NCBI GenBank assembly: GCA_025060325.1
Contig: JANXBW010000006.1
Coordinates: 62,001-126,000 of the forward strand
Length of the DNA: 64,000 bases
From: Thermoguttaceae bacterium
GTDB taxonomy: Bacteria > Planctomycetota > Planctomycetia > Pirellulales > Thermoguttaceae
Reading direction: 5' to 3'
How positions within the stretch are numbered: the first letter of the stretch is position 1; every line of letters starts with the position of its first letter. Below, piece after piece: positions 11,691-17,084 of this stretch. The notes under the pieces are model-generated. The model ran no database searches and was not told the origin of the DNA. It saw nothing but the letters and a program-made list of their open reading frames with translations. The position numbers were made by a program, and so were the translations under genes.

Positions 11691-12777
11691 TGGCAGACTC
11701 CGGATCTCTCAGAATCCCTCCGTCGGGTTATTGCCGAGCGACGTGCGTTGGGTGTTTAAATTTCCTTTTGTCTAGTAGCCAGATGCAGCGACCTGGCAAG
11801 CTGATTACCAATTCCCGCTAAAATCCCAGAAACCGATGCCAAACTGCATGGATCGGGGGCCGGCAAGTTAGGTCCGGCCCCACCGACACAGTTGTCGCAG
11901 AAAGTCGGTGCACCACGAAACTTTCCCCGGAGGGCCTTCCATTGGCTCGGTTCAATGGAATCGCGCTCGAAGACTACCGCGTTAGCAACGTTTGTCGCCG
12001 GTTAAGGTTTCCAGTGTTTCTACCCCCCACCCAAGTCGGCCGGTTGGTCCTTGGTGTCACCGGCCTACGGCCCAGAGTAAGGGGCCGCTAAACGAAAGAG
12101 CCGCTTCCGCGCTGGACTCCCCTCTAAGGCAGGAGGCACTCTCCCATCAAAATGGTGGATATTGGGCTTTCCACGCACTTCCGCCTCGGGCGCTCGAAGG
12201 AGCTCCCAACTTAAAACTAGCCCATTGGGCGGGGGTTTTTTCGACGGTCCCCTTACCTTGTTTGGGAGAGTATCCCTGCTATTGGCAGTGCTCTCAGAAT
12301 TCGCCTCGAGGAGGGACTTCGTGGCAAACAACCTTGAGGTTCCGAGAGATGCCCGCTCTTAAGATGTGGATCCGTGCCTGGAAGCGATGGCCAAGCTGGC
12401 TTGCGCATCCGCCTAACCGCGGCAAAAGGGAAGACAAGTCCCGCGCCCGCTCCGTGTGGGCGTTAAGGGAGGCCTACGTGGATCTTAAGCATCGGCCCCG
12501 GGTGGGAGCGCTCGGCAGAAGGCCGCGCTTTGGAAACTCGGTTTAGCCCGACCTTCCGGCGACCAATCCTCGCTTGGGGTTCCCTAGCAGAGACCTCCCC
12601 CACCTAAAGAGTTGGCGACTTGAAGAGAACGCTTGTTGGGAGCTAGCTGGCCATCGGGTGGTTTGGGCCGGGCTTGAAGCGGTAGATTTCCCTCAGACTG
12701 AAGAGTCCCAATAATCAATTCCGTCATTGCGGCGGATTCATCGGTCCAAAGCGCGTGCCTGGTTCGGAGAGGTGGCC
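11691..12777. other. 1.1-kb gap with hairpins
   Basis: No credible gene. A perfect 8-bp hairpin GGGGCCGG (11856-11863) / CCGGCCCC (11874-11881) is followed at once by CACCGAC...GTCGGTG pairing (11881-11887 with about 11907-11913). These sit about 170 bases before the start of the minus-strand coiled-coil gene. A weak GCCC/GGGC hairpin at 12220-12230 is followed by GGGGG and then T5-6 and could be a poor plus-strand terminator. Confidence 0.4.
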
Positions 12778-15084
12778 GTGGGTCAACAACTAACCCGGTC
12801 GGAATGCGAGCGATTGATCGCCCAAGCTTACGAGGTTGCCCGGCGGGAGCTTTTCGCCCGGCAGGTGGAGGGGCATTGGGAAGGCCGATTGGCCGACTCC
12901 CCCTTGGCAACGGCTGTGGCTGTGTCAGCGTTGGCCGTGTACTATCGAGCGAGGTCCGGGCGGATCTTTGCCAAAGGACCGACATCGGTTCGTTCGGCCG
13001 ACTCGGGGATTGGAGCCGCTGGGGAAGATTTGGTTCCTGCCTCTGCAGAGATCCCGGAGCCAGATGCGGGACTTATCGCCCGGGGACTTGATTATCTGTT
13101 TGCCACACAGCATCGGGATGGCGGTTGGGGCGACACCGACGCCGACCCCTCCAACATCGCCGCAACCGCCCTTGCCATGGCGGCCCTGCGGCTAACTTGG
13201 GGCACGGAACGGCACGAACAAGCGTGGCCGCTTGCCGAGGGATATTTCCGTCGCCAAGGGGGTGTAGACGGCATACTGGCCCGATACGGGGCGGATAAGA
13301 CGTTCGCAGCACCGATTTTGGCCACCTGCGCTGTCGCTGGGATCGTTCCCTGGGAATGTGTGCCGCAGCTACCGTTTGAATTAGCTTGGTTGCCCCAGCG
13401 GTGGCTCGGAGCAGCCGGTTTGCCGGTGGTCAGTTATGCCTTGCCGGCCCTTGTAGCAATTGGCCAATTACGTTTTTGGGCGGGGGGTGGGGGGAATTGG
13501 CCGGTTGGCCTAATTCGGCGGGCAGCATCTCGGCCCACTTTGCGAAAATTGCCCTGCCTGCAACCCCCAAGTGGCGGCTTTCTTGAGGCCGTTCCTCTCA
13601 CGGCGTTTGTCGTACTAAGTCTTGCGGGCATCGGCCTGTGTGAGCACCCAGTCGTCCTCAACGGAATCAGGTTTTTACGCCACATGGCCCGGGCGAACGG
13701 TGCCTGGCCTGTGGATGTCAACCTCGCCCATTGGCTTAGTTCGCTTGCGGCCTCAGCACTGTCTCACTTTTCACCGCAGGACTTGGAAAGGATCAACTGG
13801 GAATGGATCCTGAGTTGCCAGCATCGGAAAAGTCACCCTTTTACAGCTTCGCCTCCCGGCGGTTGGGGATGGACCGATCGTCCGGGAGCTGTTCCCGACG
13901 TCGACGACACATCGGCTGCACTGCTTGCTCTTGCTGTCAGGCGAGGCAGGGTTTCCGAACTTCGCTCGGCCACTGTGTGCGAAAAGAATCTCGGCGGGCT
14001 TTTGGACCGGGAGGCCCTTCGGAGCGACTTTTCGGCCTTGGACGCGGCTGCTTACCAGGGGCTGCAGTGGCTGCTTAATCTCCAGAACCCTGACGGCGGC
14101 TGGCCAACATTTTGCAAGGGTTGGGGGAAGCTCCCTTTTGACCGAAGCGCCGTCGACCTGACAGCCCACGCAGTCCGGGCAATAACTGCTTGGCTCCGCC
14201 TGATCCGGGGGACTCCTGCCCGTCCCGCAATCGGTTCAGAATCCGCTGGTAGAGCTTCGCCCAACGTGGTGGGCGAGACAGGGTCTTGGCGCAATTGTGC
14301 GTCTCTAACCATTCGCCCCGTATTTGAGGGGGTTTTATCCTCCCGGCAAGTTGAGGTGCTTGGTGCTCGACTTGAGGCTGCCGTCAAACGGGGGGTGGCG
14401 TTTTTGAGGAAACATCAGCGGAGCGACGGAAGCTGGATTCCGCTTTGGTTTGGTAATCCTTATTTGCCGGAGGAGGTCAACCCGATTTTCGGTACGTCGC
14501 GAGCGCTCCTTGCACTACTGGAGGTCATGCCCGCCGATTCGGGGCCGGTCCGCGCGGGGGTAGACTTCCTGGTGCGAACCCAACACAGCGCCGGTGGCTG
14601 GGGGGTTTATATGCCAGTGGCGGGTCGGGAAGGATCGACACCCGGGGCACCGGCCCACCAACCGGGGAAGTTTAGTGAAAAGGAAGTAGGGGGGCCCGAG
14701 GGGCAAGGATTCTGGCAGCACAGACAGAGTGAGGAACTTACCTGCAGGAGCGCGACAGGATCGCAGAATGATGAACCTACGCTTGGGCCGGGTCTAAAGG
14801 ACGAGGTTTTAGCCGAGGGGCGGCCGACAATCGAGGAAACGGCCTGGGCGGTCGAGGCACTTGCGGCCTTTGCAAAGAGCACTGCCCACCCCTGGCCGGA
14901 AGTTGAAGATGCCCTTCTTCGGGGGGCAACATTTTTGGCCAGCGAGTTCTTGAGTGGGGGATGGAAGGCCCCTGCTCCGGTGGGTTTATACTTCGCCCGC
15001 CTTTGGTATTACGAAGAGCTTTACCCCCTTGTATTTGGGCTAGCCGCCTTGGGCCGGGCCCTTTGCTGGTTGGCTTCTCGTTAG
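12778..15084 (+). CDS. Class II terpene cyclase, squalene-hopene cyclase-like
   Basis: A 768-residue member of the squalene/oxidosqualene cyclase and prenyltransferase alpha/alpha-barrel superfamily. The protonating DxDD motif is intact as DVDDT at residues 374-377, the same position as in the classical Alicyclobacillus enzyme. Several QW repeats (QxxxGxW) are visible: QHRDGGWG, QNPDGGW, HQRSDGSW and TQHSAGGWG. The enzyme should cyclise a linear polyprene by proton attack. It is longer than typical 630-residue cyclases, with extra segments near residues 70-90 and in a G/P-rich stretch around 625-680. GTG at 12778 is chosen because GGAGAGG precedes it; a TTG at 12727 would add 17 residues. A DUF116-polyprenyl diphosphate synthase gene starts 250 bases downstream, suggesting a shared pathway. 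Whether the substrate is squalene or another polyprene is not shown. Confidence 0.85.
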   Translation: MGQQLTRSECERLIAQAYEVARRELFARQVEGHWEGRLADSPLATAVAVSALAVYYRARSGRIFAKGPTSVRSADSGIGAAGEDLVPASAEIPEPDAGLIARGLDYLFATQHRDGGWGDTDADPSNIAATALAMAALRLTWGTERHEQAWPLAEGYFRRQGGVDGILARYGADKTFAAPILATCAVAGIVPWECVPQLPFELAWLPQRWLGAAGLPVVSYALPALVAIGQLRFWAGGGGNWPVGLIRRAASRPTLRKLPCLQPPSGGFLEAVPLTAFVVLSLAGIGLCEHPVVLNGIRFLRHMARANGAWPVDVNLAHWLSSLAASALSHFSPQDLERINWEWILSCQHRKSHPFTASPPGGWGWTDRPGAVPDVDDTSAALLALAVRRGRVSELRSATVCEKNLGGLLDREALRSDFSALDAAAYQGLQWLLNLQNPDGGWPTFCKGWGKLPFDRSAVDLTAHAVRAITAWLRLIRGTPARPAIGSESAGRASPNVVGETGSWRNCASLTIRPVFEGVLSSRQVEVLGARLEAAVKRGVAFLRKHQRSDGSWIPLWFGNPYLPEEVNPIFGTSRALLALLEVMPADSGPVRAGVDFLVRTQHSAGGWGVYMPVAGREGSTPGAPAHQPGKFSEKEVGGPEGQGFWQHRQSEELTCRSATGSQNDEPTLGPGLKDEVLAEGRPTIEETAWAVEALAAFAKSTAHPWPEVEDALLRGATFLASEFLSGGWKAPAPVGLYFARLWYYEELYPLVFGLAALGRALCWLASR

Positions 15085-15332
15085 CTCCGCGAAAGTCGCG
15101 CCCGTTGGTCGGCGGAAAAAATGCGAGTTTTCGTCACTTCTTGCGACTAAAATCCATCACACCCCAGGCCTTCCATGCCGCGACGGCCTGGTCCAGAGCG
15201 CGCCGGGGGGCGGGGAACCGTGCAGGCGACGGTCGGGGGAAATTTGCAGCTACCAAAGGCTGCCAGCTGTCCGCGAGATTTCGCGATTGGAGAATTCGAA
15301 AGAGTATCCCCACAGTTGGAGTTTCCCGGGGG

Positions 15333-17084
15333 ATGACCGCTGGGGAGGCCCCTCCCAACTTAAGCTCCGAGAGGTGTCAACATCGGGCGCCGCCAGACCG
15401 GGCCGTTCGTGAGCTTATCCGGTCCCAGGCAGAATTGGCCGTTCACCACATCCCTACCGGCCAATGGTTTTCCCGCCGACTGCTCGAGGAACTGGCCCAG
15501 CAGATCCTCTCCCAAAACGGACTGCCGCGGGACTGGATGGGCTGGACGATGGTCGCCATCGCCAGCGCTTATTGGCGGCCCCAAATCATGGGCGTGCCTT
15601 TTTCCCGTCGTCTGGTCCTTCTGCCCCATTGCATGCGCTCAAGCGGCCGATGTCCGGCCAGTTACGAGGCGGATGGCCTTCGCTGCCGACGCTGTGGCGC
15701 TTGCCCCATCGGAAGTCTTGCGTCAGAAGCCGAAGCGCTTGGTTGCCAAGTTTTGGTAGCGGAAGGTTCCCCGGCCGTAGTGAGGATGATCCTGGATGGG
15801 GCGGCCGACGCGGTGCTGGGAGTAGCATGCTTGGCTTCGCTCGAGAAAGTATTTGATCGCCTGGTTGCGGCGGGGATGCCCGGAATGGCCGTTCCGCTCG
15901 TGGTAGACGGCTGCCGAGACACGGTAAGCGACGTGGACTGGATCTGGGAGATGATTCGCACCCCGTACACTGGCCGGGGGATCTTCCACCCGTCGCTTGT
16001 GCCGCTTCTTCGGGCGGTGCATTCGATGTTCCGTGCGGAAAGGCTTGCTCGGATTTTCGAGGCGGCCGGTTGCCCCATCGTGCGAGGTCCCGAGGAGCTT
16101 CAGGGGCTAGACGGCAGGCCAGTTGCCGATTTGGCGCCGGAGGACGCTACCCGCCGCATTGCCTGGGATTTCGTCCTCAAAGGGGGCAAGCACTTTCGGC
16201 CGCTTTTGGTAGCGGGGGCTTACGACGCGGCGACAGGAGGCCAAGCAGTCGGTCAAGGGGGCGAAGCGGCCATAGCTGCCTGGCCGGGGGCTGTTTGGAC
16301 GGTGGCCGCCGCTGTGGAGGTCTTCCACAAGGCCTCTTTAGTCCACGATGACATCGAAGACGGCGATCTGGAGCGCTACGGGGCACCGACCGTCCATGCT
16401 CGCTTTGGTGTGCCGATGGCCATTAATGTCGGCGACTATCTTATCGGGATAGGGTATCGTTTACTAGGCAGTTTGGCCGGCGCCGTAGAGAAAGACGTGG
16501 CCGTGGACATTTTGCAGATGTTTACGGCAGCCCACCTAAAACTATGCCAAGGGCAAGGAGCTGAGCTTGCCTGGCGGGACCGGCTCGAAGGCTTTGCCGA
16601 CCCGCTTCTGGCTCTGCGGATATATGCCCGGAAGACAGCCCCAGCTTTGGAGGCGGCCCTCCAGGCCGGTTTTCGACTAGCTGGTCGGCTGCCAATCTCC
16701 TATGAAGTTGTGTCTCAACTTTGTCGACATTTGGGGATCGCTTATCAGATTGTCAACGACCTAGAGGATTGGGAAGAAAAAACAAACGCTCGGCGGCCGG
16801 GAGGGGATGCCTGTGGACTTCGCCCCACAGTACTTTGGGCTTTAGCTGCAAGTGTCTCGGGGCCGGCCGACACGTCGCGACGCTTGGCTCTTTGGCGAAA
16901 GGTCGCGGGCCGGCCGGAGCTGATGGCCGAGGTGGAAAGCTGGTTCCGGCAGACAGGGGCGTTCGATTCGGCTCGGGAGTTGGTCAACAAACACCGGGCC
17001 CGCATCCGCCAATTGGCCGAACAGATCCCTCAGCCGCTTGTCCGCGACTTTCTCCTCCGTGTGGAGGAAATCCTTCTGGGCTAA
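15333..17084 (+). CDS. DUF116-polyprenyl diphosphate synthase fusion
   Basis: A 583-residue two-domain protein. The first half (about residues 20-205) is DUF116-like, with the Cys cluster C-x6-C-x10-C-x2-C-x2-C (PHCMR, GRCPA, RCRRCGACPIG), likely to bind zinc or an iron-sulfur centre. The second half is a trans-isoprenyl diphosphate synthase: GGKHFRP substrate loop, first aspartate motif DDIED (339-343) and second motif NDLED (475-479), with Asn replacing the first Asp of the usual DDxxD. Such enzymes extend allylic diphosphates with isopentenyl diphosphate. ATG at 15333 is the first start that precedes the DUF116 domain without overlapping the cyclase gene. Cotranscription with the cyclase is likely. 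The N substitution may alter metal binding or chain length, but this is inference. Confidence 0.88.
   Translation: MTAGEAPPNLSSERCQHRAPPDRAVRELIRSQAELAVHHIPTGQWFSRRLLEELAQQILSQNGLPRDWMGWTMVAIASAYWRPQIMGVPFSRRLVLLPHCMRSSGRCPASYEADGLRCRRCGACPIGSLASEAEALGCQVLVAEGSPAVVRMILDGAADAVLGVACLASLEKVFDRLVAAGMPGMAVPLVVDGCRDTVSDVDWIWEMIRTPYTGRGIFHPSLVPLLRAVHSMFRAERLARIFEAAGCPIVRGPEELQGLDGRPVADLAPEDATRRIAWDFVLKGGKHFRPLLVAGAYDAATGGQAVGQGGEAAIAAWPGAVWTVAAAVEVFHKASLVHDDIEDGDLERYGAPTVHARFGVPMAINVGDYLIGIGYRLLGSLAGAVEKDVAVDILQMFTAAHLKLCQGQGAELAWRDRLEGFADPLLALRIYARKTAPALEAALQAGFRLAGRLPISYEVVSQLCRHLGIAYQIVNDLEDWEEKTNARRPGGDACGLRPTVLWALAASVSGPADTSRRLALWRKVAGRPELMAEVESWFRQTGAFDSARELVNKHRARIRQLAEQIPQPLVRDFLLRVEEILLG

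Follow-up and report, generated by a model that had tools for sequence, protein, structure and literature searches.

Which polyprene does a class II terpene cyclase fold when the gene beside it encodes a polyprenyl diphosphate synthase fused to a DUF116 domain? This gene pair lies in a 64-kb stretch of contig JANXBW010000006.1 from a Thermoguttaceae bacterium of the Planctomycetota (the window, i.e., the whole stretch of DNA that was analyzed), and its coordinates and Pfam domains agree with a preliminary description of the window, in which the two genes stood side by side. Judged from sequence, the balance tips somewhat toward a conserved isoprenoid pathway in which the fusion would act as a dedicated, additional polyprenyl synthase that supplies a class II cyclase from a new clade; iron-sulfur and radical chemistry would do the tailoring. 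What the gene set makes is probably ring-shaped and lipid-like, assembled by a route unlike the known hopanoid and sterol routes.

The distribution of the pair was assessed in 199 genomes of Planctomycetota, including the window's own, which is 95.6% complete. The cyclase was called with a family profile (A2, E ≤ 1e-60) in 46 genomes. A search with the fusion protein (P0002, E ≤ 1e-20) matched 54 genomes, of which four (G029, G133, G138, and G182) had the synthase half only and were dropped, leaving 50. The fusion is present in 45 of the 46 cyclase carriers as compared with 5 of the 153 other genomes (Fisher p ~1e-37, uncorrected for kinship); only G010 has the cyclase alone, while G028, G041, G065, G075, and G087 have the fusion alone. 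Where both are present, they are situated within 10 kb on one contig in 36 of 45 genomes, on different contigs in eight, and 441 kb apart in G107. The pair is thus deeply conserved, and the expectation that the two genes would recur as neighbors is borne out.

The cyclase has both domains of squalene-hopene cyclases (SHCs), SQHop_cyclase_C (6e-25, 88.4 bits) and SQHop_cyclase_N (2.8e-15, 56.7 bits), and falls within a wide definition of class II terpene cyclases (PF13243/PF13249 above the Pfam cut-off plus a DxDD motif). It scores only 68.8 bits against the hopene cyclase equivalog TIGR01507 of NCBIfam, below the cut-off of 431.1. Its open reading frame (ORF) extends from TTG 12727 to 15084 (785 amino acids), so that the DVDD acid motif occupies residues 391–394, or 374–377 when counted from GTG 12778 (768 amino acids), the numbering used in the preliminary description. 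The His aligned with SHC His451 is invariant in 36/36 cyclases, as are the equivalents of W489 and F601 across the cyclase alignment; these correspondences were read by eye from a profile alignment, with residue names as in the SHC literature. With the three acid-motif Asp invariant here and both Asp-rich motifs kept in the fusion (Table 1 and below), the two proteins have the catalytic residues expected of functional enzymes. The window protein is indeed about 140 residues longer than the 631-residue SHC of Alicyclobacillus acidocaldarius; as a trait of the family, however, the extra length was rejected, since 30 of 36 rows measure 590–661 residues (with starts chosen automatically), and some related Pirellulales proteins are of intermediate length. 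Six further matches to the toroid family PF13243 (L001, L003–L007) were observed in the window's genome.

Near-full-length cyclases score 581–915 bits with profile A2 (fragments less), as compared with 98–162 bits for the 30 best TIGR01787 loci. In a first tree, all 72 cyclases are on one side of a branch with 100% support and the SHCs on the other, together with a human oxidosqualene cyclase (OSC) on a long branch. A second tree, from which this OSC was left out because of a long-branch warning, along with the A. acidocaldarius row, recovers the same split between 25 of the 72 cyclases and 30 SHC rows with 100/100 support. Both trees are unrooted and comprise neither diterpene nor tetraprenyl-β-curcumene cyclases; cyclase fragments (e.g., L100, L104) were left out. 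One locus initially counted as a cyclase match, L120, groups with the SHCs. In these trees, the cyclase forms a clade of its own, apart from the SHCs tested, rather than a branch inside the hopanoid enzymes.

The start of the fusion gene needs comment, as a longer ORF from 14961 overlaps the cyclase gene. In most homologues, similarity does not begin before residues 133–144 or so of this ORF, while a few matches begin at 53–127; hence the ATG at 15333 is the most likely start. The synthase part of the model resembles solved synthases with Z-scores of 32–34 (among the 50 matches listed), and in the second Asp-rich motif the Asp at position 2 is retained in 53/53 rows and that at position 5 in 52/53. 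At the chain-length positions upstream of the first Asp-rich motif, Ala is found at −5 in 29/29 fusions and Phe at −8 in 27/29; by general chain-length rules, the product would presumably exceed C15, perhaps reaching C25–C35. At least two polyprenyl synthase matches beside the fusion were found in 9/9 genomes checked (with one more, fragmentary, in G031), and for this reason the fusion is probably not a housekeeping enzyme and looks like a specialist. The earlier suggestion that the neighbor supplies a different or longer polyprene gains from this, and from the carriers lacking a squalene/phytoene synthase described below, as regards a different polyprene; a "longer" one would follow from the chain-length motif if the rules applied to it hold here.

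The other half of the fusion matches DUF116 (PF01976; 2.3e-33, 115.3 bits, above the cut-off). Besides its five-Cys cluster, Cys 290 and 318 (numbered on the ORF from 14961) are kept, and all seven Cys residues occur in nearly all rows. The structural model (mean pLDDT, the predicted local distance difference test, 89.5) has an alpha/beta fold, for which Foldseek and VIA-align retrieved only general alpha/beta company and no solved structure that is clearly related, with 0.011 as the best Foldseek E and 5.3 as the best Z. A new fold should not be read into this outcome. For archaeal DUF116 proteins and the fusion Psta_0175 of Pirellula staleyi, a CxxCxxC motif, a predicted flavodoxin-like structure, and a proposed role in electron transfer have been described (PMC5898192), and the model is compatible with both the prediction and the proposal. 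A second fusion copy in G105 (L058) has lost the DUF116 Cys cluster and is perhaps a degenerated or repurposed paralogue. In addition, a short stand-alone DUF116-like gene lacking the synthase half was observed at L222:14671-15111, close to genes that we take to be def and fmt. The features of the window are collected in Table 1.

Table 1. Features of the cyclase and fusion genes (window coordinates; residue numbers of Cys refer to the ORF from 14961).
Feature	Coordinates	Strand	Remarks
Class II terpene cyclase (SHC-like)	12778..15084	+	GTG start, 768 aa; Pfam domains, profile, trees
Cyclase acid motif DVDDT	13897..13911	+	Three Asp invariant in 36/36 family rows
DUF116-polyprenyl diphosphate synthase fusion	15333..17084	+	Likely ATG start, 583 aa
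DUF116 domain	15501..15956	+	Alpha/beta (Rossmann/flavodoxin-like) model, Cys-rich stretch
DUF116 Cys cluster	15630..15704	+	Cys 224, 231, 242, 245, 248
Polyprenyl synthase domain	16155..16871	+	polyprenyl_synt (PF00348), 2.6e-36, 125.6 bits, above cut-off
First Asp-rich motif DDIED	16347..16361	+	Preceded by FHKASLVH; DDIxD in 29/29 aligned fusions
Second Asp-rich motif NDLED	16755..16769	+	First position N or D in the family

The proposed conserved isoprenoid pathway gains support from a feature unnoticed in the preliminary description, namely, that the pair belongs to a larger gene set. Its members are a ferredoxin-like protein (Fdx), a radical S-adenosylmethionine enzyme (rSAM), the fusion, a small single-toroid protein (TOR), and the cyclase. 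The neighborhoods of 104 fusion loci were surveyed, 50 from the phylum sample (window included) and 54 named loci drawn from the best 80 of the matches listed, several on short contigs; loci with fusion matches below 290 bits were excluded, and genes within 12 kb on either strand were counted as near. Profiles for the additional genes were seeded from one locus (L071), and the counts are slightly inflated by some records that occur in both sets (with identical cyclases at L073/L116 and L039/L113). Among the phylum-sample loci, the cyclase was found near 36, Fdx near 35, TOR near 31, and rSAM near 26; among the named loci, the respective numbers are 37, 27, 23, and 23. According to record titles, mostly of metagenome-assembled genomes, the carriers belong to Planctomycetota, Verrucomicrobiota, Lentisphaerota, Kiritimatiellota, and Bacteroidota. 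The arrangement is most regular in the last of these: the order Fdx-rSAM-fusion-TOR-cyclase was observed in 10 of 11 loci with Bacteroidota titles, the eleventh (L130) being a 3.3-kb contig, and near these fusions Fdx, TOR, and the cyclase were each found 10 times and rSAM 11 times. Draconibacterium aestuarii (L132) has all five side by side on a single strand.

The CxxxCxxC motif of rSAM and further Cys residues are conserved in five aligned rows. The L132 ferredoxin-like protein has Pfam matches in its ferredoxin half only, the half also covered by its PDB matches to HdrA. One type of cluster is rich in further genes, encoding a GcvH-like protein (near 29 of the 50 phylum-sample loci), a G3E GTPase (23), and IscS (13). 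These three are rare around the Bacteroidota core, being found near 0, 1, and 0 of the 11 loci, respectively. A gene for a 123-residue Cys protein is near 22 of the 50 phylum-sample loci. The GcvH-like proteins have an invariant lipoyl-type Lys in five aligned rows. The window's genome yielded no GcvH-like gene of the dedicated kind; its single match was rejected as such because it looks like an ordinary glycine-cleavage gcvH, with neighbors that are presumably gcvT and gcvP. Neither Pfam nor NCBIfam matched the 123-residue protein of L071, and a supposed resemblance to the N-terminus of HdrA, both of this protein and of the first half of the ferredoxin-like protein in Bacteroidota, gained no support from these searches.

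For the substrate and its chain length, the order of steps, the product and its role (perhaps as a membrane lipid), and the chemistry of DUF116, we infer the following scheme. The synthase half of the fusion would make an all-trans polyprenyl diphosphate. The DxDD acid of the cyclase would then protonate a terminal double bond of this polyprene, or of a product derived from it, and the enzyme would fold the chain into rings, so that squalene would not be needed. Electrons and radical chemistry, by which the substrate or the ring product is reduced or decorated, may come from rSAM, the ferredoxin-like protein, and the DUF116 half of the fusion. The single-toroid protein is probably a partner of the cyclase or a holder of the greasy intermediate. 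A membrane lipid and a cofactor are both conceivable as the final product. A bolder version, which we offer tentatively and consider rather doubtful, envisages a third family of ring-isoprenoid lipids beside hopanoids and sterols: the iron-sulfur DUF116/ferredoxin pair would reduce the allylic end of the polyprenyl diphosphate, in a manner reminiscent of IspH, to a chain resembling a hydrocarbon, which would take the place of squalene, undergo DxDD cyclization, and be functionalized by rSAM, with oxygen required at no step.

Whether squalene is dispensable was approached through the squalene/phytoene synthase family PF00494, found in 121 of the 199 genomes. It is absent from 11 of the 46 cyclase carriers (G010, G025, G031, G036, G057, G079, G098, G114, G126, G145, and G183), and even at a relaxed E of 10 these yielded a single sub-cut-off match (G031, E 0.4). 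G057 is 99% complete and the others 69–91%. None of the 11 has an SHC match at E ≤ 1e-40. Conversely, 24 of the 46 carriers have an SHC/OSC match as well, and all 24 have PF00494. Among SHC-less genomes, PF00494 is equally common in carriers (11/22) and non-carriers (49/108; p 0.8). It is likewise absent from 9 of 18 further carrier genomes from the named loci (completeness not given), including records of Draconibacterium aestuarii, Parabacteroides, Tannerella, and Bacteroidaceae. No squalene/phytoene synthase was detected in the 64-kb window, in agreement with the claim that none is near the pair, and its genome has no SHC match. The only PF00494 match of that genome (L216:6301-8684, contig C20) is divergent from the adjoining gene, which we take to be ispH.

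Several observations weigh against the proposed pathway. PF00494 is present in 35 of the 46 cyclase carriers, and the window's genome itself holds one such gene. The whole five-gene core was found at only 35 of the 104 fusion loci, though many contigs are short, and the window's genome has the members of the core spread over four contigs, with TOR on C3 (186 bits), rSAM on C43 (445 bits), and Fdx on C31 (197 bits). Among solved structures, an SHC gives the cyclase its highest score, and most catalytic aromatic positions stay aromatic, so a C30 substrate is conceivable. Finally, 8 of the 69 genomes with an SHC lack PF00494, namely, G138 and seven members of family f44; the latter are 99–100% complete, have a true hopene cyclase (617–632 bits), and show no PF00494 even at E 10. 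For this reason, a missing PF00494 was rejected as proof of missing squalene, and squalene independence is likely but not certain. The loci concerned are L221 (G122), L222 (G168), L180–L183, and L185–L187; a presumably HpnH-like radical SAM gene is close by in L221 and L222.

These same data bear on the possibility that we are dealing with a strongly diverged squalene cyclase, supplied with squalene by a synthase (known or unknown) encoded in another part of the genome, with the neighboring synthase merely supplying farnesyl diphosphate. The SHC match (151 bits), the PF00494 genes of most carriers, and the true hopene cyclases of f44 all fit this view, yet we regard it as unlikely: the cyclase clade is separate from the SHCs; a true SHC/OSC match in 24 of the carriers suggests that the cyclase described here has a different function; PF00494 accompanies every SHC-bearing carrier but only half of the SHC-less ones; other polyprenyl synthases were found in all nine genomes; and Ala at −5, by the general rule, is not of the farnesyl-synthase type.

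Slightly less likely again is a bacterial diterpene-type system, in which the fusion makes geranylgeranyl diphosphate (GGPP), the cyclase converts it into a bicyclic diphosphate like ent-copalyl diphosphate synthases do, and the iron-sulfur proteins modify the product. When a homologous fusion (L071) was compared with PDB sequences, the top two matches carried the name GGPP synthase, and the class II diterpene-type cyclases 5bp8 and 6vpt are among the cyclase-profile matches. SHC and lanosterol synthase nevertheless score higher in that comparison (151 and 84 vs. 44 and 43 bits), which the trees, lacking diterpene cyclases, do not address. The Ala at −5 is shared with the aligned solanesyl synthase, whereas the two GGPP synthases in this alignment have Phe and Tyr; moreover, aromatic positions that presumably act on the later rings in SHC are kept. 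As to a cluster for making or repairing a redox cofactor or for carrying sulfur, in which a GcvH-like lipoyl protein, IscS, a G3E GTPase, and the ferredoxin would cooperate and the toroid proteins would bind a prenyl group without cyclization, it is improbable, for although those genes are common in the phylum sample and the lipoyl-type Lys is invariant, they are nearly missing from the Bacteroidota core, no dedicated GcvH-like gene turned up in the window's genome, and the invariance of the DxDD acid and of the His451, W489, and F601 equivalents points to proton-initiated cyclization.

Cyclic triterpenoids serve as membrane regulators and as biomarkers in geology; squalene is the starting point of the routes usually considered. 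If the dedicated synthase-cyclase pathway proposed here is real, a conserved squalene-independent class II cyclase route in several phyla, whose carriers by record titles include Bacteroidota from rumen samples, would imply an unrecognized lipid class and possible orphan biomarkers, and would give a function to DUF116, a domain for which electron transfer has so far been no more than a loose assignment. With so few genes, and with one carrier record bearing the title of an isolate (Draconibacterium aestuarii), the proposal is open to direct testing. No description of the pathway was found in the openly licensed PMC literature, subscription papers and preprints being outside this scope.

The DUF116-synthase fusion alone is already in print: the passages on Psta_0175 (PMC5898192) describe the same domain, the CxxCxxC motif, and the same fusion in P. 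staleyi, and they propose electron transfer, with no mention in these passages of a cyclase, a radical SAM gene, or a pathway. With SHC, the cyclase shares both Pfam domains, the DxDD acid, and equivalents of D374/D376/D377, W312, H451, W489, F601, and Y612; it differs in that F365 is replaced by W, Y420 by F, and F605 by W, while Y609 is missing. Unlike a hopanoid cluster, its gene is linked to a polyprenyl synthase fusion, while PF00494 in the genome of the window is on another contig. Class II diterpene cyclases of bacteria (5bp8, an ent-copalyl diphosphate synthase; 6vpt), to which DxDD chemistry is common, resemble it in that a head-to-tail polyprenyl diphosphate is the likely feedstock, but they match it more weakly than SHC does. 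Tetraprenyl-β-curcumene cyclase, from the sesquarterpene route of Bacillus, is related to SHC and likewise has a polyprenoid other than squalene as its substrate.

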